Shown here piece by piece: positions 1,777 through 21,393 of a DNA stretch of 32,062 nucleotides. Every line of letters starts with the position of its first letter. Positions within the stretch are counted from its first letter, which is position 1. The position numbers were made by a program, and so were the translations under genes. The DNA is from Candidatus Zixiibacteriota bacterium (GTDB taxonomy: Bacteria; Zixibacteria; MSB-5A5; WJJR01), in contig JACQFV010000159.1 in the NCBI GenBank assembly GCA_016199865.1, positions 1 through 32,062 of the forward strand, written 5' to 3'. The notes under the pieces are model-generated. The model made no database searches and was not told where the DNA came from. It saw nothing but the letters and a program-made list of their open reading frames with translations.

Positions 1777-1791
1777 GCGCGTCCCAAACGA

Positions 1792-2415
1792 TCAATCTCT
1801 TCCCAAGTACGAGCGTTCTATCCCCAAGACCACCTTCAGAGCGGTCGACACGATCCCCAAGCCGACGCCGATCGTGATGGCGCGCTTGGCGGCCAGATTC
1901 GGAACATTGAGTAGCCAACTGGCCGTACTGGCGGCCGGGATCGACAACGGACCCATGGGAAAGAACCGGATCATCACGATGAAGGCCGAGACGAGCAGAA
2001 CCGACGCGACGGCCGAGCGCGCCCGGAAGGCGCGGTACGCCGCGGACGCAATGAAAAACGACAGCAAGGCGAACATCGTGGGCAGGATCGACTGCATGAT
2101 GTATTGAAACTCCCACTTGTAGACCGGAGACTCCTGTCCGCCGAACCACGGGAGGCCGGCAACGATCATCGACGCCAAGCCGGCGAGCGTGACGACCGAG
2201 TACCCCCAGTCGGGCGTACGCGTTCGGACACGCTTGGCTGACATGCGGATCAGTGAGATGATTCCCAAGGAGAGGGCGAACACGCCGATGATCGGTGGCC
2301 AGTCGAGCGCCACAAACTCGTAAAAGAACTCCGACGATTCGTGCGGCACGAAATATTGGAAGACCATGAAGGCCCCAAACAGAAAGAGGAGGATTAAGGG
2401 CAACTGTCGCTTCAT
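1792..2415 (-). CDS. multi-pass membrane protein, unknown function
   Basis: 207-aa ORF with several hydrophobic helices; clustered with neighbours. Confidence 0.8.
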   Translation of the reverse strand: MKRQLPLILLFLFGAFMVFQYFVPHESSEFFYEFVALDWPPIIGVFALSLGIISLIRMSAKRVRTRTPDWGYSVVTLAGLASMIVAGLPWFGGQESPVYKWEFQYIMQSILPTMFALLSFFIASAAYRAFRARSAVASVLLVSAFIVMIRFFPMGPLSIPAASTASWLLNVPNLAAKRAITIGVGLGIVSTALKVVLGIERSYLGRD

Positions 2416-2430
2416 GGCACGCTCATCCCG

Positions 2431-4325: not shown

Positions 4326-4799
4326 ATGGTAGGCGGGACCAAGAAGAGGAGTTCCACACCGAAGCGGACAACCTCTACCACGGTGGCGGGGCGCCGCGTC
4401 ACACGGCGCGCGACGGCCAAGCACACGAAGATTACTAAGCGCCCCACAGCGGCCAAGCCGAAGAAGGCCGTGAAACCGGGAGCGTCGGCCAAGCGCCGGG
4501 TGATCCCTCCCGCCACCAGGGCGGAGCACCGTGCCCCATCGACCGCCAAGAAGTCGGTGACCTTCACTCTCGACGCACCGGCAGGATGGGACGTGGCCAT
4601 CGCCGGGACCTTCAACAATTGGCAGCCCCAGGCGATGACAAAAAGCCCAGGCGGTTTGTGGCGCGTTGCCATCAAGCTGGCGCCCGGGACCTACCAGTAC
4701 AAGTTCTTGGCGGACACCCAGTGGCGGGAAGACCCCAACAATCCCCGCAAGACCTCCAACGAGCAGGGCGGATTCAATTCGATCTGCGCCGTGTTGTGA
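4326..4799 (+). CDS. basic-tail protein with C-terminal glycogen-binding (AMPK-beta/CBM48-like) domain
   Basis: N-terminal Lys/Arg/Ala/Thr-rich tail, then SVTFTLDAPAGWDVAIAGTFNNWQPQAMTKSPGGLWRVAIKLAPGTYQYKFLADTQWREDPNNP, a classic AMPK1_CBM pattern. AAGGAG upstream of the ATG. Confidence 0.85.
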   Translation: MVGGTKKRSSTPKRTTSTTVAGRRVTRRATAKHTKITKRPTAAKPKKAVKPGASAKRRVIPPATRAEHRAPSTAKKSVTFTLDAPAGWDVAIAGTFNNWQPQAMTKSPGGLWRVAIKLAPGTYQYKFLADTQWREDPNNPRKTSNEQGGFNSICAVL

Positions 4800-4808
4800 C
4801 CGTCGGAG

Positions 4809-4990
4809 TCACGCCTTAGCCACGGCCCGCTTCAACGTCTCATCGCTCCCCCGCGCCCATATCTCCGTCGTCGTAATCTGCCGATGTCCCAGAGCCCGTT
4901 GCACCAGGTACAGGTCGCCGGTCTTGTGGTACAGCCGGGTGGCGTTGGATAGCTGGCCATTCCGGGCGGGATGAAAATCTCGCGCGAAAC
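4809..4990 (-). pseudogene. tyrosine recombinase C-terminal remnant, copy A
   Basis: NATRLYHKTGDLYLVQRALGHRQITTTEIWARGSDETLKRAVAKA*; the nucleophile-position Tyr reads Trp (EIW versus EIY in copies C, D and F). Confidence 0.85.
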
Positions 4991-5029
4991 TTGACACAGG
5001 TAGACATTTTCGCTCATCTTCGCACACAG

Positions 5030-5106
5030 GGCGGTGTGGCTCAACTGGTTAGAGCGGCGGAATCATAATCCGCGTGTCCGGGGTTCGAATCCCTGCACCG
5101 CTACCA
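5030..5106 (+). tRNA. tRNA with CAU anticodon (Met elongator or Ile2), CCA encoded
   Basis: Cloverleaf by eye: GGCGGTG acceptor/CACCGCT, D-arm GCTC AACTGGTTA GAGC, anticodon arm GCGGA ATCATAA TCCGC (CAT), T-arm CGGGG TTCGAAT CCCTG, discriminator A plus CCA. Confidence 0.93.
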
Positions 5107-5139
5107 CTGCGGGCTGGGGATTGCCGGTCGGGTTGGACC

Positions 5140-6879
5140 ATGGCTGCTGACCATTCGGACCAGGAGAGGACAAACTTCGACGCGCCGCTGGCGGGCGGGA
5201 CGGTCGTTTCGCATTACCGCATTATCGAGAAGATCGGCGCCGGCGGAATGGGCGAGGTATATCTGGCCGAGGATACGGCCCTGAACCGGCCGGTGGCGCT
5301 GAAGTTCCTCTCTGGACGGTTGACCTCCGACGCCAGTCTGCGGTCACGCTTCACCCGTGAAGTGCAGGCGGTGGCCGCATTGAACCATCCAAACATCATC
5401 CACGTCTACGGGGTGTCCGAATTCGAGAATCGCCCCTTTTTTGCCATGGAATATGTGGAGGGGGAATCGCTGCGCGAACTGATCCAGCGTTGTCCCATCC
5501 CGATGGATCAGGTGCTCAGGATCGCCTTTGGCATCGGCGAGGGGCTGAAGGCGGCGCATCAGGTCGGTATTGTACACCGTGACGTCAAGCCGGCTAATAT
5601 CATTGTCGACCAAAGCGGCCATGTGAAGATCCTGGATTTCGGCCTGGCGAAGCGGGTCACCGATCCGGCGCTCACCAGCATGGGGTCTACTCTGGGCACG
5701 ATTTCGTACATGTCGCCGGAGCAGGCCCAGGGGCGCGAATTGGACCGGCGTTCCGACATCTTTTCCTTTGGGGTTGTCCTCTACGAGATGATCACCGGCA
5801 GACTGCCGTTCAAGGGCGACTATGACGCCGCGACACTGACGGCCATCGTCAATGAAACACCGGCGCCGCTGGCAGACCGTCGTCCGGACGCGCCGACGGC
5901 GCTGCAGCCGATCGTCGATCGGCTATTGGCCAAGGACGCCAACCACCGGTACCAGCAACTCTCTGAGGCGCTGACGGAGTTGGCAACGGTACGCGACCAG
6001 CTACGTTTGCCGACCGGCCAGCGGATTGCACCATCAAGGCGGACGAAGCAAAGAATCACCATCTACGCAGGTGCCGCCGTTGTGCTGGCCGTGCTTCTTG
6101 TTGCGTTCAGCAGATTTCTCGGCTCACGGGCGGATGTCGTGGCGCGCGGCGACAAACAAGCCGCCGTGGCGCCGGCCGATGCTGCGGCCAGCGTGAAGCA
6201 GGCCCATCCCGACACAGAGCCGATGGCGACAGTCGTAAACCATCCCGGCTCAAACGCAGGAAAACTTAGCCCTCCGTCTGAGGAGCGTGCCGCACCCGCA
6301 GCCCAGCCGATCAAAGCGCAGATCGAGGCTTCGAGCACGGCAGCGAACCGCACCAGCCAAGTGGACAATTCCGCCACGATCGCATGGCAAAAACCTGATA
6401 GCATTGTCAAAAACCCGGAGCTGCAACCGACGACGCAGACGGTAGATGAACTGCAGAGCACTCCGGAGAAACCACCGTACGGGGCAATACAGTCGGGCAG
6501 TGCTTCGGCAACTGTGCCGTCGACAGGAGCAAGTGTCGACTCGCGGCGCCAAGACTCCCTCGATATTGATGGCGTCATCCGGCGATTCTGGAAGACCCTG
6601 GAGAACCGGCGGGTTTCGGAACTCAAAGATATATATCCCCGCATGGCCGCCGACCGGGAAGCGATCTGGCGGCGTTTTGTGGACAATGCCAAAGACCTGC
6701 AGGTGGGATCGACGATCGCGAGTCTCGACCTGGGCGACAATGAGGCCGATGCGGTCGTATCAGTGAACATGGCGTTCAGGGATTCGCGTGGTTCCCGGAA
6801 ACAGACCGTGCGCTATGAGCTGCGGCTGCGTAAAACCGGAAGCCAATGGGTGATCGTGAACATGGAGCAGAGCCGCTGA
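5140..6879 (+). CDS. PknB-type membrane Ser/Thr protein kinase with C-terminal NTF2/SnoaL-like extracytoplasmic domain
   Basis: GAGGMGEVYLAED, VALKFL, IVHRDVKPANIIVD, DFGLAKR, SPEQAQGRELDRRSDIFSFGVVLYEM; TM helix IYAGAAVVLAVLLVAFSRFL. The ORF-track start at 5074 overlaps the tRNA, so ATG 5140 (MAADHSDQ) is preferred. Confidence 0.92.
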   Translation: MAADHSDQERTNFDAPLAGGTVVSHYRIIEKIGAGGMGEVYLAEDTALNRPVALKFLSGRLTSDASLRSRFTREVQAVAALNHPNIIHVYGVSEFENRPFFAMEYVEGESLRELIQRCPIPMDQVLRIAFGIGEGLKAAHQVGIVHRDVKPANIIVDQSGHVKILDFGLAKRVTDPALTSMGSTLGTISYMSPEQAQGRELDRRSDIFSFGVVLYEMITGRLPFKGDYDAATLTAIVNETPAPLADRRPDAPTALQPIVDRLLAKDANHRYQQLSEALTELATVRDQLRLPTGQRIAPSRRTKQRITIYAGAAVVLAVLLVAFSRFLGSRADVVARGDKQAAVAPADAAASVKQAHPDTEPMATVVNHPGSNAGKLSPPSEERAAPAAQPIKAQIEASSTAANRTSQVDNSATIAWQKPDSIVKNPELQPTTQTVDELQSTPEKPPYGAIQSGSASATVPSTGASVDSRRQDSLDIDGVIRRFWKTLENRRVSELKDIYPRMAADREAIWRRFVDNAKDLQVGSTIASLDLGDNEADAVVSVNMAFRDSRGSRKQTVRYELRLRKTGSQWVIVNMEQSR

Positions 6880-6900
6880 CGGCATACGAGAGGAGGGTTT

Positions 6901-8232
6901 GTGGCCAGGAGGCATTTGCGATGGTTTGTGTGGGCTGTGTGTCTGGGATGGGGTCTGGCAGCGACGGCGCAGGGGCAAAGTCTGCGCAGGCAACTCGAGG
7001 GGGTCTTCAATGACCCCTTGGCCATCGAACTGGCGGGGCCGCCGGGGACGCAGCACGGCGACCATTTCAAGCCGGAAAACGTCAAGACGAGCGGACGGAT
7101 CATCTCGACCATCAGCGATTTTGTCGCGAACAACACCGCCTCGTTTCCACTGAGTTCGACCGCGGCGGGAATCACCTTTGATTTCAGTTCCGGCGTTCCA
7201 GTCGCCACCACGTCCAGCGCCGGGCCGATCTTTGCCGAGAGGGCGCAGACGCTGGGGAAAAACAAGTTGAACGTCGGCGCCAATTTCTCGCGCTTGAACC
7301 TCAACAAACTGCGCGGCATCCCGACCGACGACCTGCGATTCACCTTCACCCATCAGAACGTCGGCGACACGAGCGTCTTCGGCGACTCCCCAAATGAATT
7401 CGACGCGATCGTGCTGGAGCCGCACCTCGATCTGAACGTTTCCATTGTCGCCCTCCATGCCACATATGGCTTGACCGACCGCCTCGACGTCGGGATTGCC
7501 CTACCCCTGGTGAACGTGAGTCTGAAGGCCAAACCATTCGCGCGGATCAACAGTTTCACCTATGCCCACAGCCAACATGCCAACCACTTCTACGGCGGCA
7601 CCTCCGAAAACCCGGTTCTGACCCTGAGCGCCCAATCCGTGGACGACGTGGCCTCCGGCGTGGGCGACGTCGCGCTGCGCGCCAAGGACAACATCTATCG
7701 CGGTGATGGCCTGGACTTGGGGATTCTGGCGGAGGTGCGTCTACCGACCGGTCGCGCGGAGGATCTGCTCGGGGCGGGCAAGTCCAGCGTCAAGGCGGCA
7801 TTGATCGCCTCGGCGGCGTGGGGAAATGTCTCCCCGCATCTGAATCTCGGCTACAACTGGCGCGCCGGCGACCTGTACCGCGACCGGGTCGAACTGATCG
7901 CCGGCTATGACATGAAGGCGACTGACAAGGTCACGCTCGCTGCCGAATGGCTGGGGCAATTCGAAATCGGCCGCGAAGTCGCCGCACTGCGCTTTCCGGA
8001 ACCGACGCAGATACAAACCGCCACGCCCGACGGTGGCGAGGTCACGACCATCGTCGTGGCGCCGACCAATATCCCCAACCGGTCGCACGATCACGTGATG
8101 AATTCATCGTTCGGCATCAAATACGCGCCCAAGGCCAACGTGATCCTGGTCGCCAACGTGATGCTGCCGGTCAACGACGGCGGGCTGAGGTCAAACTTTG
8201 TGCCGACGGTGGGGGTGGAGGTGAACTTCTGA
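6901..8232 (+). CDS. secreted/outer-membrane protein, transporter or phenol MetA-pathway-like beta-barrel
   Basis: GTG start with GGAGG upstream, signal-like N-terminus, repeated amphipathic strand motifs (LNVGANFSRLNLNKL, YGLTDRLDVGIALPLVNVSLKAK, PHLNLGYNW), terminal hydrophobic/aromatic residue pattern (VGVEVNF). Confidence 0.7.
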   Translation: MARRHLRWFVWAVCLGWGLAATAQGQSLRRQLEGVFNDPLAIELAGPPGTQHGDHFKPENVKTSGRIISTISDFVANNTASFPLSSTAAGITFDFSSGVPVATTSSAGPIFAERAQTLGKNKLNVGANFSRLNLNKLRGIPTDDLRFTFTHQNVGDTSVFGDSPNEFDAIVLEPHLDLNVSIVALHATYGLTDRLDVGIALPLVNVSLKAKPFARINSFTYAHSQHANHFYGGTSENPVLTLSAQSVDDVASGVGDVALRAKDNIYRGDGLDLGILAEVRLPTGRAEDLLGAGKSSVKAALIASAAWGNVSPHLNLGYNWRAGDLYRDRVELIAGYDMKATDKVTLAAEWLGQFEIGREVAALRFPEPTQIQTATPDGGEVTTIVVAPTNIPNRSHDHVMNSSFGIKYAPKANVILVANVMLPVNDGGLRSNFVPTVGVEVNF

Positions 8233-8244
8233 GTTTCAGCGACA

Positions 8245-8389
8245 AGATGGCTTGAGAGTCCGCTCTTTCAGTGATCCACCAGCGGGCCAGCGCCTCCAGA
8301 TCCCGCCGGTAGGCAGACCGGGTGTGGGCCGAACGGCCGTTGGCGGCCAGTTGGCGGGTGAAGCGGTCGATGGCAGTCGTTACATTCAT
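8245..8389 (-). pseudogene. tyrosine recombinase N-terminal SAM-like domain remnant
   Basis: MNVTTAIDRFTRQLAANGRSAHTRSAYRRDLEALARWWITERADSQAI resembles the Xer/phage integrase core-binding N-terminus. Start codon is preceded by GGGGAGG. Homology-like sequence ends next to the 3' end of the upstream barrel gene. Confidence 0.75.
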
Positions 8390-8602
8390 CTGGTCCTCCC
8401 CTTAAACGTCATCAGAGTTCGGGAGGGGAAGTCAAGGGGGAGAATTGACAGCGCCTGCGCGTCGAACACATTGACTATCGATGGTCGTTTGCGTCATTTC
8501 CGAGGGCGTCGTACTTTGGAGGTCATTAGCAGAAAGGATTGAGCCGGGGAATTGCGAATGCACCGAATCAACAGCAGTTGACTTCCATCTCTTACGAGAC
8601 CC

Positions 8603-11600
8603 ATGGCCAAGAATCCATTCGATTCCTATGTCTCTGCCGTCGAGAAAGACTTTCAGACCGGCAGGGCAACGGAGCATACGCATAGGCCGGCCCTGAAGAA
8701 GCTCTTGGAGGCCCTCGCGCCAGGTGTGACTGCGACGAACGATCCGAAGCGGATCGAATGTGGCGCGCCGGACCTGCACGTGTCGCGAGACTCTGGACAC
8801 GGCCCCATCACTATCGGTCAGGTTGAAACAAAGGACATCGGGAAGAACCTCGACGAGGTCCTGAAGACCGAGCAACTTGAACGATATCTGGCCGCGCTGC
8901 CCAACCTTGTCCTCACCGACTACCTGGAGTTCCGTTGGCTCGTAGACGGAGCTCTGCGGCTCTCCGCGCGATTGGCGCGCCCTGACAGGCAGAAAAAACT
9001 CCGGGAAGAGCCGGGCGGGAACGTGTCGGTTAACGATCTCTTGGATTCCTTTCTCTCGCACCGCCCTCAACCAATCAGCACTCCGAAAGAACTGGCGGTT
9101 CGAATGGCCCGGCTGACGCACGAGATCAGAGAGATCGTCGTCGCGGCCTTCGAGAAGGGTGTTGTTTCCGAAACTCTAAGCGATCTGCGCCGGTCGTTTG
9201 AGACGGTCCTCCTTCCCGATCTGACGGACCGCGCCTTTGCCGACATGTATGCCCAGACGCTGTCCTATGGTCTTTTTGCGGCACGCTGCAACCACACGGG
9301 GAGTGAACGATTCCGCCGTTTAGGAGCCGCGGCTGAAATTCCCAAGACGAATCCTCTTCTGAGGCAGCTATTCGAAACGGTTACCGGAACGGCGCTCGAT
9401 GAGGAACCCTACGTAGGATTTGTTGACGATTTGGCACAGCTCTTGGCAGATTCCGACATTGAAGCCATTCTCAGCAATTTTGGCAAGAGGACCGCCCGCC
9501 AGGACCCGGTGGTCCATTTCTATGAGACGTACCTTTCCGAATACGATCCCAAGCTGCGCGAAACACGAGGCGTGTACTACACGCCGGAGCCGGTTGTGTC
9601 CTACATCGTCCGCTCGGTCGACCACCTGCTGCGGACGCGCTTCAATTGCGAGTCCGGACTTGCCGACACAGCCAGGGTCACCTACCAGAAAGAAACTCAG
9701 ACAGCAGACAAGACCCAGATCATTTCAGAAATCGCGCCCAAGGTACTGGTGCTGGATCCGGCTTGCGGCACTGGGACCTTCCTTTATGCGGTGGTCGATC
9801 TCATCCGCAGTGAGTTCGCCAAGCAAGGCAACGCCGGGCTTTGGTCCGGGTACGTGCGCGATCATCTTTTGCCGCGGCTGTTCGGCTTTGAATTGCTCAT
9901 GGCGCCATACGCGGTCGCTCACTTCAAGCTGGGGATGCAGTTGGCAGCTCAGGACATGACCTTATCCGAGCGCAGTCGATGGGCCTATGATTTCTCCGGC
10001 GCTGAGCGCTTGGGGGTCTACTTGACGAATACCTTGGATGAGGCCGAACGGCTGATCCAGGAGCAGTGGGGCTTCTCGCGAACGCTTGCATCGGAAGCCA
10101 ACGCCGCTTCCCGGATCAAACGTGACTTGCCGATCATGGTGGTGCTCGGTAATCCCCCCTACTCGGGCCATTCGGCGAATCGCAGTTGGGAACTCGAAAA
10201 TGGTAAGAAAGTGCACAACTTCATCGGGCGTCTGCTGGAAGACTACTACAAAGTTGACGACCAGCCCCTCGGCGAGCGAAATCCAAAATGGCTGCAAGAT
10301 GACTATGTGAAGTTCATCCGCTTCGCCCAGTGGCGCATCGAACAGACTGGAGCTGGGGTACTCGCCTTCATCACCAATCACAGCTACATCGACAGTCCAA
10401 CTTTCCGGGGGATGCGCCAGCAATTGATGCGCGCTTTCACCGACGTCTACATTTTGGATCTACATGGAAATGCAAAGAAAAAGGAACGTTCACCTGACGG
10501 TTCAAAGGACGAGAATGTCTTCGACATTCAGCAGGGCGTGGCCATCGGCATTTTCATTAAAGAGAAAGGTAAGTCTGGCCCGGCCGCGGTCCATCACGCC
10601 AACTTCTGGGGGACAAGAGGCGGCAAGCACGAGAGTCTCTTCGCCGAAGACATCTCGAACACCACTTGGGCAGAAGTCGTTCCCCAGAGTCCCTTCTACC
10701 TCTTCACGCCTCAGGATGCGGATCTACAGAGGGAATACGAGCGCTGGTGGAAAATTACCGAAATCATGCCTGTCAATGTGCTCGGCTTTCAGACACACAG
10801 AGATCACTTCGCAGTCGACTTCGACAGAGACGAGATGCGACGACGCATTCAGGAGATGCGATCGACCAGACTCGACGACGAGGAGTGCCGTGCAAAGTAT
10901 GAAGTCAAAGACAATCGGGATTGGAGCCTCGCCGGCGCCAGGACCCGGCTTCGGGCAGACCGCCGTTGGGAGGAGAGGCTGATTCGCTGTCTGTACAGAC
11001 CGTTTGATTGGCGCTGGTGCTACTTCAGCGAAGTGGCCATGGACTACCCTCGACGAGAATTGTTGGACCATGTTTGGGGACGAGAGAACTATTGTCTACT
11101 TGCATCGAGGCAACAGGCCACCGTAGGCTACCGGCATTGCTGGGTGGCGAAAGAGCCTCCGAACGACTGTGTTGTATCCACGACGAGTAGGGAAGCAAAC
11201 CAGGCGTTCCTGCTTTACACCTACCCACCAAGTGGGGAGCACCCCAGAGCCAATCAGGAAGAGGCCGACTTGCATGTTTGGCCGTCCGGGAAGGACGGTC
11301 GACGTCCGAACTTCATGCCTGCATTCGTTCGGGAGATGGAGGGCCTTCTTCGCCTGCGGTTCATCGCCGACGGTCGTGGTGATTTGAAGGAGACTGTTGG
11401 GCCAGAGGATATTCTTCACTACATGTACGCGGTGTTTCATTCGCCTACGTACCGCACCCGGTATGCCGAGTACCTAAAGATCGATTACCCGCGTTTGCCT
11501 TTGACTTCCGACATGACGCTCTTCCGGTCCCTCTGCCATTTTGGGTCAGACCTGATAGGGCTGCATCTTCTGGACTCGCCGCGTTTGATGGAGCCCGGCA

Positions 11601-11995
11601 TCAAGTATCCCGTTGCGGGCTCAAATGTCGTTGAAAAGGGGCATCCCAAGTATCTCGCACCCGGTGCGCCAGAACCGAGTAGCGGAATCCCCCTTGCCGC
11701 GGGACGCGTTTACGTCAACAGGGGCGACGTTAGATCAAGAGTAGCGGCACAGTATTTCGATGGTGTGCCCGCAGAGGTATGGGATTTTCACATTGGCGGA
11801 TATCGGGTATGCGAGAAGTGGCTCAAAGACCGCCAGGGTAGAACGCTGACGTTCGATGAACTCGACCATTACCGGGGAATGGTAGCCGCGCTCAGAGAGA
11901 CGATTCGTATTATGGCCGAAATTGACGTCGTGATTGATGACCACGGCGGCTGGCCGGCCGCGTTTGCATCCGGAAAGCACGAAGATTCCAGATAG
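8603..11995 (+). CDS. single-chain restriction-modification enzyme: PD-(D/E)XK-like N-terminus, N6-adenine methyltransferase, type ISP-like C-terminal specificity domain
   Basis: GAPDL...IGQVETK (PD...ExK-like), VLDPACGTGTFLYAVVDLI (motif I), VVLGNPPYSG (motif IV NPPY), C-terminal YRPFDWRWCYF...YCLLASRQQATVGYRHCWVAKEP. No helicase motifs noticed. Confidence 0.9.
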   Translation: MAKNPFDSYVSAVEKDFQTGRATEHTHRPALKKLLEALAPGVTATNDPKRIECGAPDLHVSRDSGHGPITIGQVETKDIGKNLDEVLKTEQLERYLAALPNLVLTDYLEFRWLVDGALRLSARLARPDRQKKLREEPGGNVSVNDLLDSFLSHRPQPISTPKELAVRMARLTHEIREIVVAAFEKGVVSETLSDLRRSFETVLLPDLTDRAFADMYAQTLSYGLFAARCNHTGSERFRRLGAAAEIPKTNPLLRQLFETVTGTALDEEPYVGFVDDLAQLLADSDIEAILSNFGKRTARQDPVVHFYETYLSEYDPKLRETRGVYYTPEPVVSYIVRSVDHLLRTRFNCESGLADTARVTYQKETQTADKTQIISEIAPKVLVLDPACGTGTFLYAVVDLIRSEFAKQGNAGLWSGYVRDHLLPRLFGFELLMAPYAVAHFKLGMQLAAQDMTLSERSRWAYDFSGAERLGVYLTNTLDEAERLIQEQWGFSRTLASEANAASRIKRDLPIMVVLGNPPYSGHSANRSWELENGKKVHNFIGRLLEDYYKVDDQPLGERNPKWLQDDYVKFIRFAQWRIEQTGAGVLAFITNHSYIDSPTFRGMRQQLMRAFTDVYILDLHGNAKKKERSPDGSKDENVFDIQQGVAIGIFIKEKGKSGPAAVHHANFWGTRGGKHESLFAEDISNTTWAEVVPQSPFYLFTPQDADLQREYERWWKITEIMPVNVLGFQTHRDHFAVDFDRDEMRRRIQEMRSTRLDDEECRAKYEVKDNRDWSLAGARTRLRADRRWEERLIRCLYRPFDWRWCYFSEVAMDYPRRELLDHVWGRENYCLLASRQQATVGYRHCWVAKEPPNDCVVSTTSREANQAFLLYTYPPSGEHPRANQEEADLHVWPSGKDGRRPNFMPAFVREMEGLLRLRFIADGRGDLKETVGPEDILHYMYAVFHSPTYRTRYAEYLKIDYPRLPLTSDMTLFRSLCHFGSDLIGLHLLDSPRLMEPGIKYPVAGSNVVEKGHPKYLAPGAPEPSSGIPLAAGRVYVNRGDVRSRVAAQYFDGVPAEVWDFHIGGYRVCEKWLKDRQGRTLTFDELDHYRGMVAALRETIRIMAEIDVVIDDHGGWPAAFASGKHEDSR

Positions 11996-12042
11996 CCGAA
12001 GAGCCCCCTGCCCCGGCAACGGAAGGTTCTGAGGAGCAAGCT

Positions 12043-12104
12043 ATTCAGGCCAGAGGTGTCTTAACTAGTAGTCCGAACGTGTCCGAATTGACCGACGACG
12101 TACA
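12043..12104. repeat. 62-bp diverged direct repeat, copy 1 (R62-1)
   Basis: attcaggccagaggtgtcttaactagtagtccgaacgtgtccgaattgaccgacgacgtaca; ungapped match to 21332-21393, 52/62 identical by hand count. Confidence 0.85.
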
Positions 12105-12502
12105 ACTGATCGCTTGGGGCTGCCCGGTGCCGGGCGGCCGACTCGCATAAGCTCCAGAGGGCCAGGCGGCAGGTTGGGCTCTTGGAGGCAAAGCACAGGA
12201 CCGGTCGGCTATCTCCATGGCGCCCGCAGCTTCGGACCTCATAACTTCTTGCAAATCAAAGAGCAACGGGTTATGAAACGGATTCCATGTCAGCCACGCG
12301 CGGGATGGTACCGTCCTGCGCCAACGGCTGCGAAAGTTGTCACGACGGCGTCCGGACTTGGGCCATCCCTGACAGCACTACCAGCTTCAACGGCAAGGGA
12401 TGATAAGAATTTTTGGGGCGAATCGAGCGGCTCCAACGTATACCGACTAATTACGATGTATTTTGTCCCTATTTCACCACGATCGAGAAAGGAGAAAGAA
12501 AG

Positions 12503-13111
12503 ATGTTCGGAGGAAAAAACAGCAGCCATGACCGACCCACGCACGACTTGGGGATGGTGGCAATCATCTGCTTCGCGTTAGCCATGACCGGGGCAGTTGC
12601 GTCCGCGGGCGGGCCGCCAGGATATGAGCCGGCCTACGTCAACGGCACCACCGTGACGATCAATGCGATTGAAGTCAAACAGAACCCGACAGAGAAAGCC
12701 CAGGCCGACTTTTACGAGCTCGTGTATCCCTTTGATCCCGTGACCGGCCAGGAACTACCTGCCTTTTGGCCGTCGGCGCCGCAGTGCAACCCGTGCGATC
12801 ATGTGGGCGACGGCATCACACCCGACGATTTTCACGATCACATTCTGGATTCTCAGCCGTCGAACCCGGGTCATGGAGAGTACAGCCCGCTCTGGCGCGT
12901 GTTCGTCGTAGTTCCCAATTATACCGGCAGCGCCGCCCACAATGCAGCGGTAAACGCCCAATACCAGGCGTTACTGCCGGTAAAGTCGGAGGCCGCCATG
13001 GATGCTCTGATAGCGACGCAGGTGGACGGCGTTCCGATAGCCAACGAGATTGACACGCATTTCTACTTCGTTTGCGCGGTCGTGAACCAGAATGCAGCCG
13101 CTGATCATTAG
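12503..13111 (+). CDS. secreted protein of unknown function
   Basis: ATG with AAAGGAG upstream; signal peptide-like MVAIICFALAMTGAVASAGGPPG; conserved-looking body with CNPCDHVGDGITPDDFHDH. Confidence 0.75.
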   Translation: MFGGKNSSHDRPTHDLGMVAIICFALAMTGAVASAGGPPGYEPAYVNGTTVTINAIEVKQNPTEKAQADFYELVYPFDPVTGQELPAFWPSAPQCNPCDHVGDGITPDDFHDHILDSQPSNPGHGEYSPLWRVFVVVPNYTGSAAHNAAVNAQYQALLPVKSEAAMDALIATQVDGVPIANEIDTHFYFVCAVVNQNAAADH

Positions 13112-13183
13112 CGTGGCGCAACCGGCTTCCTCGAACTGAACGGGGATGCTGAGGCCGCGACGTCGCGCGTGGCGCGTGCTTGC

Positions 13184-13236
13184 AATGGCGGCATCTGCCG
13201 GTTGAGGACGGGTATCCGCCGGCAGAGGCCGCCATT
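13184..13236 (+). terminator. strong hairpin, probable terminator of the 12503-13111 gene
   Basis: AATGGCGGCATCTGCCGG / CCGGCAGAGGCCGCCATT, 18-bp arms with one mismatch, 17-nt loop, followed by TCTTTC. Confidence 0.6.
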
Positions 13237-13338
13237 TCTTTCGCTGGTCTTGGGCACTGGCCAAAAACCCTGCGCGAAACCGCCTTGTGAAGAGGCCCGT
13301 TCTTCGGCCATTTTCGGATGTCACCTGCGCATGGCCGG

Positions 13339-13382
13339 CCTCGCATACACCCGTCGTCGTAATCTGCCGGCGCCACGGCGCC
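13339..13382 (-). pseudogene. tyrosine recombinase C-terminal remnant, copy B (heavily degraded)
   Basis: cccgtcgtcgtaatctgccggcgccacggcgcc aligns with gtcgtcgtaatctgccgatgccccagcgcc of copy D; minus translation RRQITTTGVCEAG. Confidence 0.6.
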
Positions 13383-13516
13383 TTTCACTTGGGTGGGAGA
13401 ATCGCCATCATGACGATGCCGCGCAGCGGCTGTCCGCGGGCGGTTCTTCGATCGCACCCTTTTACGACGGGTTGAAGCCGGGCGGCCGGGCTCAGGATCA
13501 GAGGAGGCACAACAGA

Positions 13517-14533
13517 ATGATGCCCGCTGCTGTCACGCGCCCGCTTCACATTGCCGGGATCTTGGCGGCAAGCCTCGGGACCGCACGCGCTCAGCATGCC
13601 CTCTCGACAAACGAGCCCCTCCGACATGTTCAAACCATGGCGCTGCCAGGGATCACGGGGCGCCTCGATCATATGGCGGTGGACGTAGAACGCCAACGCC
13701 TGTATGTCGCTGCGCTCGGGCACAACACCGTCGAAGTCCTGGATTTGCGGACGGGCGGGAGAATTCGCTCTCTGGGTGGCTGTCGTGAACCGCAGGGCGT
13801 CGCCTGCCTGCTGCATTCCGATCGCGTCTGCGTCACCAATGGGGATGGCGGGGAATGCCTGTTCTTCACGGCTGATTCATTGCCGGTCGTCGGGTCGCTC
13901 CCTCTCACCGATGACGCCGACAACGTCCGGTATGACGCCGGCCGCGCAAGGTTGTACGTCGGATACGGTAGTGGCGGTCTGGCGATCATCAGAGAGTCGG
14001 ACGCCAAACTGCTCGGGACGGTGCCGTTGTCGGGGCATCCTGAGGCGTTCCAGGCGGAGTCATCCGGCGCTCGGGCCTACGTGAACATTCCGTCCGGAAA
14101 CCAGATCGCGGTCGTTCAGTTGGACTCAGGGCGAGTGGTGGAACGGTGGAGGCTGGGCAGCACTCATTCCAACTTCCCGATGGCACTGGATGAGGCGGCA
14201 CACCGCCTGTATGTGGGTTGTCGCACTCCCCCGACCCTCTTGGTCTACAACACGCAGACGGGGCAGATCGTCTCGCACTCCGAAATCGAGGGGGATGTGG
14301 ATGATGTGTTCCTCGACCGACAGAAACAGCGCCTCTACATCTCCTGTGGTTCGGGGTTTGTGCAGGTGCTGCAGCGGGACGGAGATGACCGTCTCGAGAC
14401 GGTTGCCAAGATCACCACGCGGCGAGGCGCTCGGACTTGTCTGTTTGTCCCCGAACTGGGACGGCTCTACGTGGCGGCGCCGCGGCAAGGGGATCAGGAC
14501 GCAGTGATTGAGGTGTTCGAAGTACTGCCATAG
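13517..14533 (+). CDS. secreted YVTN/YncE-like beta-propeller protein
   Basis: Tandem ATGs with GAGGAGG upstream, signal peptide, repeats such as DHMAVDVERQRLYVAALGHNTVEVLDLRTG and DEAAHRLYVGCRTPPTLLVYNTQTG. Confidence 0.85.
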   Translation: MMPAAVTRPLHIAGILAASLGTARAQHALSTNEPLRHVQTMALPGITGRLDHMAVDVERQRLYVAALGHNTVEVLDLRTGGRIRSLGGCREPQGVACLLHSDRVCVTNGDGGECLFFTADSLPVVGSLPLTDDADNVRYDAGRARLYVGYGSGGLAIIRESDAKLLGTVPLSGHPEAFQAESSGARAYVNIPSGNQIAVVQLDSGRVVERWRLGSTHSNFPMALDEAAHRLYVGCRTPPTLLVYNTQTGQIVSHSEIEGDVDDVFLDRQKQRLYISCGSGFVQVLQRDGDDRLETVAKITTRRGARTCLFVPELGRLYVAAPRQGDQDAVIEVFEVLP

Positions 14534-14649
14534 ACGTCGGTCTTCGAAGGTGCGCGCGCGGAGATGCTATGAAGGCAAGAGTCCCATATGTTTCCCTTGA
14601 CAGGTCCTGCTCGGACCCCGACCATACCTTCGGACAAAGGAGGTCAGAG

Positions 14650-14766
14650 ATGACGAAAAAGAAGACCACGAGACGGAAAGTCCGGTGTACCGCCAAGACG
14701 GCGACCGGAAAGCCGTGCAAGAACTACGCCGCCGGCAAGTCGAAGCGCTGTTCAAGCCATCGTTGA
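14650..14766 (+). CDS. 38-aa Cys/His small protein, DUF5763-like putative Zn-binding
   Basis: MTKKKTTRRKVRCTAKTATGKPCKNYAAGKSKRCSSHR; C-x(8)-C...C-x2-H spacing; AGGAGG upstream of the internal ATG. Confidence 0.7.
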   Translation: MTKKKTTRRKVRCTAKTATGKPCKNYAAGKSKRCSSHR

Positions 14767-14799
14767 ACGGAGCGCCTGGGAGAATCTGCAATCTCTGAA

Positions 14800-14830
14800 G
14801 AGGGGTGTGGCGGCAACCGCCGCGCCCCTC
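14800..14830 (+). terminator. rho-independent-like terminator downstream of the 38-aa gene
   Basis: GAGGGGTGTGGCGG CAA CCGCCGCGCCCCTC, 14 pairs including two G-U, then AATCGTTTGG. Confidence 0.6.
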
Positions 14831-14879
14831 AATCGTTTGGCTTCCGCAGTGTGCTGACGGTATATCGCAGCATTCGAGG

Positions 14880-14970
14880 TCAAACTGATCCCACTGCCCG
14901 TTTCAACGACTCATCGCTGACGCGGGCGTAGATCTCGGTCGTCGTCATCCGGCACTGGCTCTGGACCGAG
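14880..14970 (-). pseudogene. tyrosine recombinase C-terminal remnant, copy C
   Basis: SVQSQCRMTTTEIYARVSDESLKRAVGSV*; apparent short in-frame deletion before TTTEIY. Confidence 0.8.
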
Positions 14971-14990
14971 GAATCCAAGGAGGTAGGACT

Positions 14991-15710
14991 ATGGCACGGG
15001 TCTTGGCGTTCGTGTACGGCGTCATCTGCTATCTCGTGTTCTTTGCGACCTTTCTTTACGCGATCTGGTTTGTCTGGACCATGGATCAACATTCCCCGGC
15101 GTCCGGTCCGTGGCAGAAGGCGTTGGCGATTGATGCGGTTGTGCTGGCCGTCTTTGCTCTCCAGCACAGCATCATGGCGCGGCAGGGATTCAAGCGGGCC
15201 TGGACCAAGGCCATCCCACATCCGATCGAGCGCAGCACCTATGTCTTGCTCGCCAGCCTGGCCCTCCTACTGATCATTCGGCTCTGGCAACCACTGCCCG
15301 GCGTCGTCTGGAACCTGGAGTCCTCGGTGGGTCACTTGATCCTGCAGGGGCTGTTCTGGCTTGGCTGGGCCACCGTCCTTGTTTCGACCTTTCTGATCGG
15401 CCATTTCGATCTGTTCGGCTTGAAGCAGGTCTGGCTGTTCCTCCGGGGCGAGACGTACCAGCCTCCCGCCTTTGTCAAGCCCGGCCTCTACAAGTTTGTC
15501 CGGCATCCAATCTACATGGGGTTCACCTTGGCCTTCTGGAGCACGCCGCACATGACAACGGGACACCTCTTCTTCGCGATCATGACGCTGGCGTACGTCC
15601 TCGTCGCCATCCAACTGGAAGAGCGCGATCTGATCACGTTCCACGGGGAAGAGTACCGGATTTATCGGAGTGGCGTCTCGATGCTGGTACCGTGGCCCAG
15701 CAAGCGGTAG
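14991..15710 (+). CDS. mddA: MddA-like methanethiol S-methyltransferase (NnrU/isoprenylcysteine methyltransferase superfamily)
   Basis: AAGGAGG upstream of ATG; FALQHSIMARQGFKRAW, HPIERSTYVLLASLALLL, FVRHPIYMGF, EERDLITFHGEEYRIYRSGVSMLVPWP. Confidence 0.8.
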   Translation: MARVLAFVYGVICYLVFFATFLYAIWFVWTMDQHSPASGPWQKALAIDAVVLAVFALQHSIMARQGFKRAWTKAIPHPIERSTYVLLASLALLLIIRLWQPLPGVVWNLESSVGHLILQGLFWLGWATVLVSTFLIGHFDLFGLKQVWLFLRGETYQPPAFVKPGLYKFVRHPIYMGFTLAFWSTPHMTTGHLFFAIMTLAYVLVAIQLEERDLITFHGEEYRIYRSGVSMLVPWPSKR

Positions 15711-15767
15711 CAACAATCGCCCTGCTCACTCTGTCGCTGATCCAAACAATGCGACCGTGCCAGGGAT

Positions 15768-15862
15768 TCACGCACCACGGACGGCGCCTCAGCGACTCAT
15801 CGCTGACCCGTGCGTAAATCTCGGTCGTCGTAATCTGCCGATGCCCCAGCGCCCGCTGGACG
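15768..15862 (-). pseudogene. tyrosine recombinase C-terminal remnant, copy D (frameshifted near the 3' end)
   Basis: VQRALGHRQITTTEIYARVSDESLRR; a frame shift restores AVRGA* in line with the other copies. Confidence 0.85.
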
Positions 15863-15975
15863 GTCTTGGAAATTGGTCTCGCAACCCGCCGATCTGTCTG
15901 AGTTATTGCATCTGACCGTGCCCGACGGGCAGGCCAGACGCAGTGGCTGAGGCCGGACACTGAGAGGAGATAGGT

Positions 15976-16296
15976 GTGAAGATCTATGTGGGCGGTCTCG
16001 CGCCCGAGGTGGACGATGGCAAACTCAAAGATCTGTTCACTCCCTATGGCCAGGTCGAATCCGCCGTGGTAGTCAAGGGTCACTACACCCGCCAGTCGCG
16101 GGGATTCGGCTTCGTCGAGATGCCCGTCCGTGCCGAAGCCAGCGCGGCCATCACCGCCCTGAGTGGGACGCGGTTGATGGAGCGCGCACTCGAGGTCAGT
16201 GAAGCGAGGCCGCCGGCAGACAGGCCCCCCCACGGGGATCGCAAGGGCGGTGGATCTCCTCGCCGCGGTCGACCGGACGGTGGGAATCGTCACTGA
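15976..16296 (+). CDS. RRM-type RNA-binding protein with Gly/Arg-rich tail
   Basis: MKIYVGGLAPEVDDGKLKDLFTPYGQVESAVVVKGHYTRQSRGFGFVEM shows RNP2 and RNP1 motifs; GTG start with GAGGAG upstream. Confidence 0.92.
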   Translation: MKIYVGGLAPEVDDGKLKDLFTPYGQVESAVVVKGHYTRQSRGFGFVEMPVRAEASAAITALSGTRLMERALEVSEARPPADRPPHGDRKGGGSPRRGRPDGGNRH

Positions 16297-16618
16297 ACAG
16301 AGCGGCGACGCTGCCTTCCCGATGTCGCCGGCATTTCTCGCAATCTGGCATCGGGCAGCACCCGGCATCAGTTCAGACTCAAGCCGGCGGCTGACTCGTC
16401 GAGTGCGGACGCTCACGAGTAAATTGAACCGTTCTTCCCCGCTTTTCGCTTGACGTCACTGACCCGTAGAGGTTGATTATTGGCGAGCCCAGAGGGCTCA
16501 GGCGGGGCGATTAACCGCCATACCTCATTGCGGGCTCCAACCGCAGCTGTAAAGTCGACGACAATTGATTCGAGACTTGGTCAGGCCAGTGCCGTACGTA
16601 TAACAAGGAGGTTCCACC

Positions 16619-17371
16619 ATGAGAGTCAGACGACGCGTTCACCCCGCACCTCTCTTGGCGGCCCTGCTGGCCGCCGTGGCGCTCACCCCTTGGACGGCGT
16701 ATGCCGCCGCCGGGGCAGGGTGCGCCGACCTGAACCATGACGGCGTGGCCAACATCCAGGACGTCATGGTTGCGGTCAACACGGTCTTCCGGGGCGACAC
16801 ATCGCTGCATTGTGCGGACTTGACCGCCCCGGCTGAGGCACTGTCGAACTGGTTTGGTCCGGCGCTGTCCAACGTCAGTGATCCTTTGCAGCAGCAGGCG
16901 CTCTCATCGCTCGCCTCTCCCGTCACGTTCAACGCCGTCGTCCACGACTCCGGGCGTGCCGTGCCCGCGCTGTTGGCCTTCGGCGACGCGGTGATTCAAC
17001 TGGAGGGAACCGGCCTTTTGGATCAGTATCAGGCCGCCGGCCTGCTGGACGTGGCGACCAGCGCTTGGCCAATGGCGACGGGGGCGGAGGGTATCAGTTC
17101 CGACAGTCTTCTGCTGACTTTGCGCTGCCTGCACGAGTGCAAGGAGCGGTTCGAACATTGCCGCCGGGACAGCGTTGACAGTCTACCACAGTGCGTGTCG
17201 GAATTGGTTCACTGTCTGGTCGGCTGTTTGCGCCACGACCGGTCCGTGCCGCAGGATTGCATCGACATATGCCTGCACGAGTACCGGGACTGCCTCACCT
17301 CGGGCAAGCCGGCCTGGTGGTGCACTTCGCGCCTTGCTTGGTGCATTGTGCGCTGTTTCCGGAACGGCTGA
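16619..17371 (+). CDS. secreted dockerin-type protein with Cys-rich C-terminal region
   Basis: Signal peptide; CADLNHDGVANIQDVMVAVNTVFRGD (dockerin-like Ca loop); C-terminus with repeated CxxxC motifs. AAGGAGG upstream. Confidence 0.8.
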   Translation: MRVRRRVHPAPLLAALLAAVALTPWTAYAAAGAGCADLNHDGVANIQDVMVAVNTVFRGDTSLHCADLTAPAEALSNWFGPALSNVSDPLQQQALSSLASPVTFNAVVHDSGRAVPALLAFGDAVIQLEGTGLLDQYQAAGLLDVATSAWPMATGAEGISSDSLLLTLRCLHECKERFEHCRRDSVDSLPQCVSELVHCLVGCLRHDRSVPQDCIDICLHEYRDCLTSGKPAWWCTSRLAWCIVRCFRNG

Positions 17372-17401
17372 TCTCGATCAACAAGGCTTATGTCAGGACA
17401 A

Positions 17402-17434
17402 AACCCCCGGCCGGATGTTCTCCCGCCGGGGGTT
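17402..17434 (+). terminator. terminator-like hairpin after the dockerin gene
   Basis: Perfect 10-bp arms AACCCCCGGC...GCCGGGGGTT, 13-nt loop, then CTT. Confidence 0.65.
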
Positions 17435-17493
17435 CTTGCGCTCTGGCCACAGAAACCGGAACGTGGCTCGGTCTGCGAGGTAGTGTAGCTGAT

Positions 17494-17640
17494 CTATTGA
17501 GTCTCGCGTAATATAGAGACATGCTGTGTACGGCCCCACCGCTTGCGGTGGGATTGCCCGAACCATCCTCCCACAGCACGCTGTGGGCCACCAATCTCTT
17601 CTCTTGACCCGCTGTCACTGGATTATACGAGACTCAATAG
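17494..17640. mobile_element. 147-bp MITE-like element with about 19-bp terminal inverted repeats and two internal hairpins
   Basis: CTATTGAGTCTCGCGTAAT ... ATTATACGAGACTCAATAG (17/19 complementary); internal CCCACCGC-TT-GCGGTGGG (17535-17552) and CCCACAGC-AC-GCTGTGGG (17570-17587). Confidence 0.55.
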
Positions 17641-17864
17641 GTTAGAACTGATTTCAAAATACCCGCAACGCGGAGCAGGTTGACGCCATGGCCTTGCAGA
17701 ACGAGGTGAGCCATGGCGTTCAGTGGACGACTGAGCGATGCGCCGTCCGTCAGGGCGAGGACGGCGTCGAGACCGGTCGCGCGCCGGAATAGGGTCCGAT
17801 GAGCATTGAAACATTCCCGCTTGCTCGTGCTCGGTCACTTCGACGCGACGCCGCGAGCGACCCC

Positions 17865-18191
17865 TCATTCGCCAGGCGGGTGATAGCGAATCTTTTCGAC
17901 CCGCCCAAGCGCCTCCAGAGTCTCCTCGACCGTCAGTAAGACCGTCGTCTCGAACTTCGAGAGCGCCCCACCGCCGCTGATCGCGAACGATACCGCCGCC
18001 ATCGCCACGTTGTCCGGGGCCTCCCACAGGGTGTAGCCGTCGTACTCCCCGAACGCGTACCAAAAACCGTGGAGTTTTCCGCCAACCGACTCGATGTAGG
18101 ATCGGGCCGCGACTCGCCGGTCCTCGGGATGCTTGGACAGTCGAGCCCACGTCTCGGGGGTGTAGCTGAAGCGCGTCAGGTACATCGCCAT
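17865..18191 (-). CDS. GYD-domain protein
   Basis: MAMYLTRFSYTPETWARLSKHPEDRRVAARSYIESVGGKLHGFWYAFGEYDGYTLWEAPDNVAMAAVSFAISGGG; AAGGAGG about 6 nt upstream of this internal ATG. The track ORF extends to 18389. Confidence 0.8.
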   Translation of the reverse strand: MAMYLTRFSYTPETWARLSKHPEDRRVAARSYIESVGGKLHGFWYAFGEYDGYTLWEAPDNVAMAAVSFAISGGGALSKFETTVLLTVEETLEALGRVEKIRYHPPGE

Positions 18192-18467
18192 GGTCTGCCT
18201 CCTTGGGGATACGGGGTCAATACCACTCAAAATTGCCTTCAAGTCAACTCGGGATTCCGCAACTGGAACGTACTGCGTAGCGACCGCACCCGCAAGCACC
18301 GAGCACGCCGAAAGGAACTGCCGACGTGACAAGGCAGATTGCTCTCCCGACGTTGCCGGATTCCGCAATGTGATGTCGCCAGTGGACATGCGCAGTCAAG
18401 ATGACCGATGGATCGATGGTTAACAATAGTCGATGTGATGGAGGCTTCAGTTGAATTCGAGAGGACC

Positions 18468-19028
18468 TCAAGCCAATAGCCGTAACCACTTCTTGCCCCA
18501 GCCGCTCGTCGCCGGCGGAGCCGGAAGGGTCGACAAGGACGAGTGCCAGTGCACCCACTTCCAGCCGTCGTCGCCCCTGCGCAATACGACCGTGGTCCGG
18601 GTTGGCTGTGAGAGTGTGCTTCCGTCGGGCATTGTCGCCACAAAGTCGTACTCCAAGGCGCAGAAGGCCAAAGCGGAGATCGCATGACAGTCGGTAGAGT
18701 GCCGATCGAATCTCAGTCTTGCGCCCGCCTTCTTGGCCCAGGCGAAGATATCGTTGAAGTAGCGGACGGCCTCATCCCGCGACCCCATCCGCACCGGCTT
18801 GCCCTCCACGTCGATGTCGAATCCCGACACGTCCTTGCCCATGGCGACACTTACCCAGGCCGAATCCATCGCAGCAATGGCATCCATCCCCTTGTCGATT
18901 ACCTGGCGCACTTCTCGTGTCGCCGCGTCGTCCCAGAGTGCCGTGGGTGGCTTCTGTTCCGCCGACGCGATCGTGAGACTGCAAACTCCCAATACAGCCG
19001 CGAGAACGATCCATCGAATTCTGCGCAT
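18468..19028 (-). CDS. secreted SnoaL/DUF4440-like (NTF2-fold) protein
   Basis: Signal peptide MRRIRWIVLAAVLGVCSLTIASA; VRQVIDKGMDAIAAMDSAWVSVAMGKDVSGFD...WKWVHWHSS typical of SnoaL-like proteins. Confidence 0.75.
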   Translation of the reverse strand: MRRIRWIVLAAVLGVCSLTIASAEQKPPTALWDDAATREVRQVIDKGMDAIAAMDSAWVSVAMGKDVSGFDIDVEGKPVRMGSRDEAVRYFNDIFAWAKKAGARLRFDRHSTDCHAISALAFCALEYDFVATMPDGSTLSQPTRTTVVLRRGDDGWKWVHWHSSLSTLPAPPATSGWGKKWLRLLA

Positions 19029-19180
19029 CGGGTTTCACTCTTGGTGACGAGACTTGAAAACGATCAAGAACGGGTGAGAGGTTGATTTCCAAACAACCGA
19101 CCGAATCGGTGCGAAGAGGGTACCCGAAGTTAGAATCCCGGACAATCAGATTTCGAGATCGGCACTACTCGGGTGGGCTG

Positions 19181-19272
19181 TCAGAGACGTCCTACGGCCT
19201 GCCGCACCGAATCATCGCTCACCCGCGCGCAGATCTCGGTCGTCGTGATCTGTCTATGCCCCAGCGCCCGCG
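19181..19272 (-). pseudogene. tyrosine recombinase C-terminal remnant, copy E
   Basis: Minus translation RALGHRQITTTEICARVSDDSVRQAVGRL*; nucleophile-position Tyr reads Cys. Confidence 0.82.
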
Positions 19273-19304
19273 GGGTGATCGCGGGACAGGCAGGCCCACT
19301 GCCG

Positions 19305-19348
19305 GGGGCAACTCGCAGCAGCATTGTACTGACAATGTGAGTTGCCCC
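19305..19348. other. nested inverted repeat (terminator-like or structured element) next to copy E
   Basis: GGGGCAACTC gcagcag CATTGT actg ACAATG t GAGTTGCCCC: outer 10-bp and inner 6-bp arms, both perfect. Confidence 0.55.
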
Positions 19349-19405
19349 GATTTGTTGTCCGCAAATCAGGACTGAGACTTGAGGGGCCCCGTCCCCCGCC
19401 AGCCC

Positions 19406-19930
19406 TCATCGGACTTTTTCCCAATGGTCCACGAACACGCCGGGACGTGTCGCCGTCAGCTTGCTGCCCTCGAACACGATTTCGGGTTCGTCGTGAAGCG
19501 GGAGCTTGATCTTGAGCTTGGAACCGTCCGTTGTCACGGGAGCTTTGCCGTTTGCCTGAGTGAAATCATACTTCAGGCCGGTGCCGGTGATCTCGTCGTT
19601 CATGCAAAAGTACAGATTTTTCTCGACGTATTCCTTGTCGGTGAGTGTGTACTCGGCGACGTAGGAGATGGAAACATGCTTCCCCGCCGAATCCGACCAC
19701 GCCACATTGAAGTTCCGGTATTTCTCCGTATACGTGACCATCCCGACGATGGCCGGCGGCTTCTGCACCGCACCATTGGGAAGATCCCGCGACACCAGCA
19801 TGTAGGTGCCCTGAATGTTCGGCGTCTTGACCGCCGCAGTGCCCGCCTTGTCCTGGCCGGGGGCAAGCGACACAGCGCCAGCCACCAAGGCGGCGACGAT
19901 AACCACGAGGCCAACCGGTTTCTTACGCAT
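19406..19930 (-). CDS. secreted protein of unknown function
   Basis: MRKKPVGLVVIVAALVAGAVSLAPG signal; GGAGGAGAC before the ATG; NIQGTYMLVSRDLPNGAVQKPP...; track ORF extends to 20005. Confidence 0.75.
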   Translation of the reverse strand: MRKKPVGLVVIVAALVAGAVSLAPGQDKAGTAAVKTPNIQGTYMLVSRDLPNGAVQKPPAIVGMVTYTEKYRNFNVAWSDSAGKHVSISYVAEYTLTDKEYVEKNLYFCMNDEITGTGLKYDFTQANGKAPVTTDGSKLKIKLPLHDEPEIVFEGSKLTATRPGVFVDHWEKVR

Positions 19931-20053
19931 GTCTCCTCCTGAAGGTTGAGAGTGCACACTTACAGCCCCGGTCCATATCCGTGTGGCAGATACCCGGGCT
20001 GACAACGGGGCCAGTCACGCCCAGAGATGTTCGAGTGTCAAGCGGAAATGCTG

Positions 20054-20266
20054 TCAGGTGGAACGGACGGCCCGCTTCAGGCGGTCATCGCTGACCCGCG
20101 CATAGATCTCAGTCGTCGTGATCTGTCGGTGCCCCAGCGCCCGCTGGACCAGGTACAGGTCTCCAGTCTTATGGCACAGGCGGGTCGCGAAGGTGTGGCG
20201 GGTGATTCCTGCTTTCTGGCACGGGCCGGAGAGCCGCCATTGCACCTGCCGGGTTGCCGACCGCGA
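20054..20266 (-). pseudogene. tyrosine recombinase C-terminal remnant, copy F (longest)
   Basis: RQVQWRLSGPCQKAGITRHTFATRLCHKTGDLYLVQRALGHRQITTTEIYARVSDDRLKRAVRST*; retains HTFATRL, GHRQ and Tyr; apparent internal deletion at GIT/RHTF. Confidence 0.87.
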
Positions 20267-21295: not shown

Positions 21296-21331
21296 CCCCG
21301 CGCCGAGGACGAGATGTGGAAAGACCAAGTC

Positions 21332-21393
21332 ATTCAGGCCAAAGGTGTGTGAGCTTGGAGTCCGAACGTGCCCGAATTGTCTGACGATGTACA
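21332..21393. repeat. 62-bp diverged direct repeat, copy 2 (R62-2)
   Basis: attcaggccaaaggtgtgtgagcttggagtccgaacgtgcccgaattgtctgacgatgtaca; see 12043-12104. Confidence 0.85.

Follow-up and report, generated by a model that had tools for sequence, protein, structure and literature searches.

Copies of an integrase's own 3′ end as candidate working ends of an integron-like gene-capture system in Zixibacteria

Introduction

Why should the last codons of a tyrosine recombinase gene recur, always on the same strand, between the small genes of a bacterial contig? The initial annotation of this locus had offered two answers, either that related integrase-bearing elements inserted repeatedly and decayed, or that the recombinase 3′ end is itself the recombination site of a cassette-like system and persists as a scar. 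The textbook platform for gene cassettes in bacteria is the integron, whose attC sites are of unresolved origin. Islands that insert at the 3′ ends of genes and restore them are known as well, with trmE, prfC and tRNA genes as targets. For archaeal SSV-type "suicidal" integrases, PMC8371274 describes a gene that becomes split, with int(N) and int(C) lying at the two ends of the virus or plasmid. Our comparison of the locus with related genomes makes it rather probable, judging from sequence, that the repeats are scars as well as working ends, left and used by an integron-like system with which Zixibacteria would capture genes at the integrase's own 3′ end.

Materials and methods

The window is the whole stretch of DNA that was analysed, a complete contig (C12, 32,062 bp) of a 2.24 Mb draft genome in 207 contigs whose relatives include deposited Candidatus Zixiibacteriota MAGs. 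Genomes, contigs and loci carry our own labels (G, C and L; the window's genome is G000). Copies were searched with R1, a profile of the integrase 3′ end that uses sequence only and has 97 columns. Its 31 source copies include A, D, E and F of the window and leave out C and B. Genome-wide copy counts were made in 12 genomes at E values up to 0.01. A model of the complete integrase gene (897 positions) was scanned over 23 contigs or contig stretches; most of these loci had first been picked by their integrase 3′ end, and a search with the first 240 residues is the fairer control for 5′ pieces. Genes in the units between copies were called by a simple codon-usage score, and the calls are approximate. 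Seven genomes were searched with a 60-nt query from G005:C93 that contains a hairpin and extends across the stop codon. Catalytic residues were assigned by reading the sequence.

Six integrase 3′ ends on one strand of the window

Six minus-strand copies of the recombinase end, A to F, had been reported for the window, and all of them were found close to where they had been placed. Five match R1 at E values of 2e-13 to 4e-23 in a whole-genome search: copy A at 4809–4963 (model positions 761–892; R1 match 4809–4903, E 1e-20), copy C at 14880–14961 (820–895; E 2e-13), copy D at 15768–15862 (801–890; R1 match 15769–15860, E 2e-22), copy E at 19181–19275 (805–888; R1 match 19182–19273, E 9e-22) and copy F at 20054–20245 (750–895 in the nhmmer model; R1 match 20054–20148, E 4e-23). 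Copy B (13339–13382) is present as well, but it is short, frame-broken and marginal (R1 E 7e-4). The differing tails that the initial annotation described are equally real, reading AKA* in A, GSV* in C, GRL* in E and RST* in F, while D is frame-shifted by a 2-nt deletion in its tail. Copy F is the longest integrase remnant in the window, with residues recognisable by eye to about codon 222 and a small internal deletion. An integrase 5′ remnant with its leader (8277–8445, minus strand) covers the first 119 nt of the model and is among the very few pieces that lack a 3′ end. The window is a decayed array without an intact integrase, and the remnants of its platform are F, A and the 5′ piece at 8277.

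A multi-copy integrase family close to XerC and XerD

As the cassette reading had implied, further copies exist in the window's genome and in its relatives. R1 has 78 matches in 11 of the 12 genomes searched (E up to 0.01), with 22 in G005, 15 in G001, 11 in G007, 10 in the window's genome, 8 in G003 and at most 4 in each of the others. Among 134 genomes of the class, multi-copy arrays are limited to a single Zixibacteria family and one further genome from its order (G009).

Intact integrase genes encode about 296 residues, and the XerC and XerD models fit them best, both at scores below the curated cut-offs (TIGR02224, 190.8 bits vs 335; TIGR02225, 182 vs 330). The integrase also falls below the curated XerA cut-off and far below those of the IntI models TIGR02249 and NF011946 (86 vs 265 and 70.5 vs 435 bits). 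PDB entry 1a0p, XerD, is among its closest protein relatives. Family matches place the integrase in the tyrosine recombinase superfamily, and the R-K-H-x-x-R-H-Y active site of the intact gene (R152, K176, H246, R249, H272 and Y281) is invariant when five intact proteins are aligned. Searches of 50,697 phage and 72,556 plasmid records turned up no relative at 60% identity or more; one distant viral contig is related to the integrase, and part of the neighbouring genes were scanned for phage or conjugation functions.

Fragments keep the 3′ end, one strand and one side of the integrase

The scan with the complete gene model found 10 intact or near-intact integrases and 56 fragments, and the integrase 3′ end is kept in 54 of the latter, which start at positions 337–823 of 897 and mostly at 721–823. 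Only L040 1168–1650, a locus that also has its own 3′ piece, and window 8277–8393 lack it. The search with the first 240 residues across ten genomes likewise returned few body pieces without a 3′ end, namely window 8258–8386, G000:C103 and G001:C42 (weak), and no homology further left of the partial starts rose above shuffles.

All copies on a given contig share one strand (58 copies on the 13 contigs with two or more), and in G005:C5 they do so even in clusters up to about 110 kb apart. Eight of the 10 integrases that are intact or nearly so have a partial copy within 5 kb on their downstream side, and none has one upstream (sign test 2^-8).

One strand is also kept between clusters tens of kb apart on G005:C5, C83, C84 and C93 and on G001:C28. 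Such a rule between distant clusters hints at a connection with the direction of replication; the GC skew, near zero, is too weak to judge copy orientation against replication. Separately, a number of contigs terminate in a copy or at most about 50 nt away from one (G000:C43, G003:C69, G003:C403, G003:C418 and G007:C144). These ends look like assembly breaks, possibly from strain variation or repeats.

Small gene units recur between copies

We listed 32 units between copies, ranging from 210 to 3,973 bp and mostly holding one or two predicted genes, which lie in both orientations. Packing can be tight: on G001:C10 (L043) a gene at 6353–6802 is separated from a copy on each side by 14–18 nt, and on G005:C93 a gene stops 5 nt from a copy. 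The unit genes belong to families such as SnoaL, DinB, GYD, ChaN-like, carboxylesterase, DUF1232, 2′-5′ RNA ligase, sigma-70 regions, RRM, AMPK1_CBM/CBM_48 and MddA, and in the annotated units we recognised neither a further integrase nor a phage gene. The arrays are made up of gene units that lack a recombinase and are separated by a single, uniformly oriented repeat, and they adjoin an integrase gene.

Several units of the window recur in other genomes with ends at or near copies. The gene adjoining A encodes an AMPK1_CBM/CBM_48 domain protein (4326–4799, plus strand) and stops 10 nt from the copy; a homologue lies beside a copy in G003 (L058 9777–10016) and another at a contig end in G001 (L044), so that the gene ends beside a copy in both the window and G003. 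A unit with a 38-aa Cys/His-rich ORF (14587–14832, plus strand), whose left edge is reported at 48 nt from copy C, reappears as a block of about 245 bp exactly between two copies in G005:C93 and again in G006:C5, at 75–77% identity between the window and these two genomes. Between C and D lies the plus-strand gene 14991–15710, which had been named mddA, and the name holds: the model for MddA methanethiol S-methyltransferase matched above its curated cut-off. An RRM protein, a dockerin-like protein, a GYD protein and SnoaL_3 had been claimed between D and E, and these are indeed present. The RRM gene (15976–16296, plus strand) lies about 110 nt from copy D and recurs together with it in G001 (L043 13191–13511), with a spacing of about 112 nt in both genomes. 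The secreted protein encoded at 16655–17371 (plus strand) carries its dockerin-like label from the initial annotation and has no NCBIfam match. GYD (17865–18191) and SnoaL_3 (18468–19028) are both on the minus strand. The block around GYD (17850–18311) has counterparts of 84–86% identity in G005:C43 and G006:C30. Both of these start no more than 6 nt from the head edge of a copy, and the window has no copy at that point; the conserved flank at 280–3234 is about 72% identical. Between E and F, a gene on the minus strand (19406–19930) encodes a 174-aa secreted protein without a Pfam match, and a protein that looks similar by eye is encoded near a copy in G007 (L133 1058–1627).

Recurrence with ends at or near copies thus covers the 38-aa unit (G000, G005 and G006), RRM (G000 and G001), CBM_48 (G000 and G003) and GYD, and units are shared between genomes at 65–86% identity. 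In genomes with arrays, 5 of 13 RRM genes lie near copies on array contigs (one each in G000, G003 and G007, two in G001), and cold-shock genes lie near copies on G000:C58, G001:C10, G003:C403, G006:C5 and G007:C349. Vertical inheritance of an old ancestral array could account for part of this sharing and for the placement of RRM and cold-shock genes. Tandem diverged cold-shock-domain genes adjoin integrase 3′-end copies in L042 (9935–12200) and L058 (7245–8692).

Native flanks are displaced from the integrase tail

Paralogous loci allow filled sites to be compared with empty ones. The 60-nt hairpin flank occurs six times above background, only in G005 and G006 among the seven genomes. In three cases it directly follows an integrase stop (C93:4928, C93:43983 and C30), and in the other three it is displaced by 0.83 kb (C83:2043), 1.34 kb (C5:14194) or 1.68 kb (G006:C5:18108), downstream of other intact integrases whose strand it shares, with new DNA that carries at least one gene in between. 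Because the displaced pieces begin inside the last 2–3 integrase codons (GCCGCCTAAGACACC...), the DNA was added at the integrase tail. The displacement is a static one, and no gain or excision of a unit was seen at strain level. The displaced piece in C5 is preceded by a partial copy (818–896); two of the three displaced-flank loci have no partial copy directly before the flank. On C93 the native flank still adjoins the integrase though units sit further down.

The copies themselves point to the same place. In the alignment their similarity stops at RAV and the following codons differ in nearly every copy, while the stop falls at codon 296–298 in 28 of the 38 partial copies in which a stop was found; both properties agree with the addition of DNA at the integrase tail. 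No common motif was found after the stop codons beyond the hairpin group. Breakpoints between related loci had been expected to coincide with the repeats, and at paralogous loci they do fall inside the last integrase codons, but no conserved nucleotide core or fold of the site was found.

Constraint and ancestry of the 3′ end

The idea that the core of the repeat is conserved beyond synonymous decay found no support: third-position mismatch is 0.44 in partial copies vs 0.39 in intact genes, which gives no sign of DNA-level constraint. A candidate dyad in the 3′ end, AGATYAC-7-GAGATCT, may only reflect codons. We found no attC-like or conserved fold of the copies (consensus structure −0.58 kcal/mol), and the folding of six copies did not exceed that of shuffles (z −1.3 to 1.1). 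The 5′ starts of the partial copies are spread over 721–823 instead of sharing one point.

Codon choice was compared between eight G005 paralogues and one G006 gene: the chance of finding the same codon at conserved amino acids is 0.74 over codons 2–245 and 0.48, 0.54, 0.61, 0.43 and 0.29 in the successive 3′ blocks. The best change point of synonymous identity in the pooled data is codon 246, and protein selection does not explain the drop, since amino acids stay conserved over codons 246–280. We read this as a sign that the 3′ ends have an older, mixed ancestry, in which exchange with a divergent pool would explain the synonymous drop. A single crossover at codon 246 was considered and rejected: breakpoints of single pairs scatter over codons 209–280, a pattern that is also compatible with homologous exchange, and the starts of partial copies show no concentration at that codon. 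Upstream of the integrase leader (roughly 60 nt), the paralogues are flanked by unrelated DNA.

A proposed capture mechanism and its rivals

In the reading that we favour, the platform would be the gene for the XerC/XerD-like tyrosine recombinase of about 296 codons. Incoming DNA, usually of one or two genes, would enter at the very 3′ end of this gene, just after the ...RAV codons, and would bring along a new tail of 3–4 codons with a stop, so that the recombinase stays readable. On its other side it would carry a 55–160 nt copy of the integrase 3′ end, and repeated insertion would build the order integrase, unit, 3′-end copy, unit, 3′-end copy in a single orientation. The recombinase itself presumably acts by site-specific recombination, via circular units. 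Observed directly are the arrays, the 3′-end-only rule, the polarity, the recurrence of units across genera and the displacement of native flanks with a break in the tail. The proposal that the recombinase 3′ end serves as insertion point and scar is partly supported, through copies in relatives, units that recur across genera and gene gain at paralogous loci, and it is better supported than repeated insertion and decay.

Decay of stacked elements is nonetheless the main rival. Integrase-bearing elements would have accumulated in succession at the same spots, each bounded by its integrase 3′ end with an attachment site next to the stop, and the older 5′ parts would have been deleted while cargo survived. 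Near-complete but broken integrases do exist (G000:C150, G001:C28 and G009:C29), the longer remnants (starts 337–623) grade into the short ones, and the coding-like change of partial copies at third positions implies that they derive from real genes. However, dozens of deletions would be required, every one of them sparing the last ~75 nt and stopping near an intact gene; 5′ or internal pieces are nearly absent, and no other mobile-element genes were recognised in the annotated units. Independent insertion and decay leaves the bias of the fragments and their downstream-only position unexplained and does not by itself account for displaced flanks with a break inside the integrase tail, and we consider it unlikely.

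Less probable still is an attachment site inside the integrase gene, as in the archaeal SSV-type integrases (PMC8371274) or in phages with integration-dependent immunity, where integrations split or re-tail the gene and C-terminal pieces stay behind. Such a design has precedent in archaea, and both the remaining 3′ pieces and the synonymous break near codon 246 within the gene would suit it. As in SSV-type systems, the recombination site is tied to the integrase gene; here, however, the gene is restored and intact integrases with restored ends are common. N-terminal pieces should be about as numerous as C-terminal ones, with the two halves flanking each element, but N-terminal pieces are nearly absent and 3′ pieces dominate.

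Copying without site-specific recombination, through 5′-truncated reverse-transcribed copies or foreign DNA joined by one-sided homology to 3′ ends, would fit the shared 3′ end, its variable 5′ truncation and the missing nucleotide core, but it is very improbable given that no reverse transcriptase was recognised in the arrays and that random insertion would not be expected to yield one strand per contig and downstream-only polarity.

Comparison with known systems

The proposed capture system shares several features with integrons. A tyrosine recombinase marks one end of the array; the units mostly hold a gene or two and lack a recombinase; each comes with one short repeat, always in the same orientation; and the genes are small and varied, in units that are common to several genomes. 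The differences begin with the recombinase, which is XerC/XerD-like and scores far below IntI cut-offs. In place of a folding attC, the repeat copies the 3′ end of the integrase itself; the insertion point is in the coding end, so that the integrase is re-tailed; and unit genes lie in both orientations. The system resembles an integron in its working and yet is not one, since it departs from integrons in two defining traits, the integrase type and a folded attC. We class it, with moderate confidence, as an integron-like capture system of a Xer-type recombinase. With islands at gene 3′ ends it shares insertion at a 3′ end, restoration of the target gene and displacement of the old end, whereas in the present case the integrase's own gene is targeted, by units that bring no integrase with them. 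The Xer recombinases XerC, XerD and XerA are the closest protein relatives (191 bits with the XerC model; XerD in PDB 1a0p), from which this integrase differs by its scores below curated cut-offs, its several copies per genome and its place in gene arrays.

It is conceivable, and we advance it only tentatively from these comparisons, that this is a second, independently evolved integron-like system, in which a Xer-family recombinase would use its own coding 3′ end as capture site, the tail would be rewritten with each unit and the copies would travel as recombination sites. We found no prior description of such a Zixibacteria capture system in open-licence papers. If true, a cassette site that is visibly derived from the integrase gene would offer a natural model for the origin of such sites, cassette capture would have evolved more than once, and the arrays would hold an unmined pool of mobile genes. 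It would also be a rare case of a recombination target within a protein-coding end that must be readable after each insertion.

Further features of the window

A tRNA-Met (CAT) gene (5030–5106) lies 67 nt from the head of copy A. It was considered as an insertion target and is not supported as one: A is on the 5′ side of the tRNA, and tRNA matches in relatives lack the surrounding window DNA.

A different, 71-nt direct repeat occurs at 12034–12104 and 21323–21393 (82% identical), each time just downstream of a gene, and its two window copies jointly bracket copies B to F; more copies of it are found in G000:C74, G000:C151, G007 and G005:C5. The start of the contig (1–254) is 86% identical to G005:C5:58267–58520 and contains an ORF that by eye resembles the end of an IS630-type transposase.
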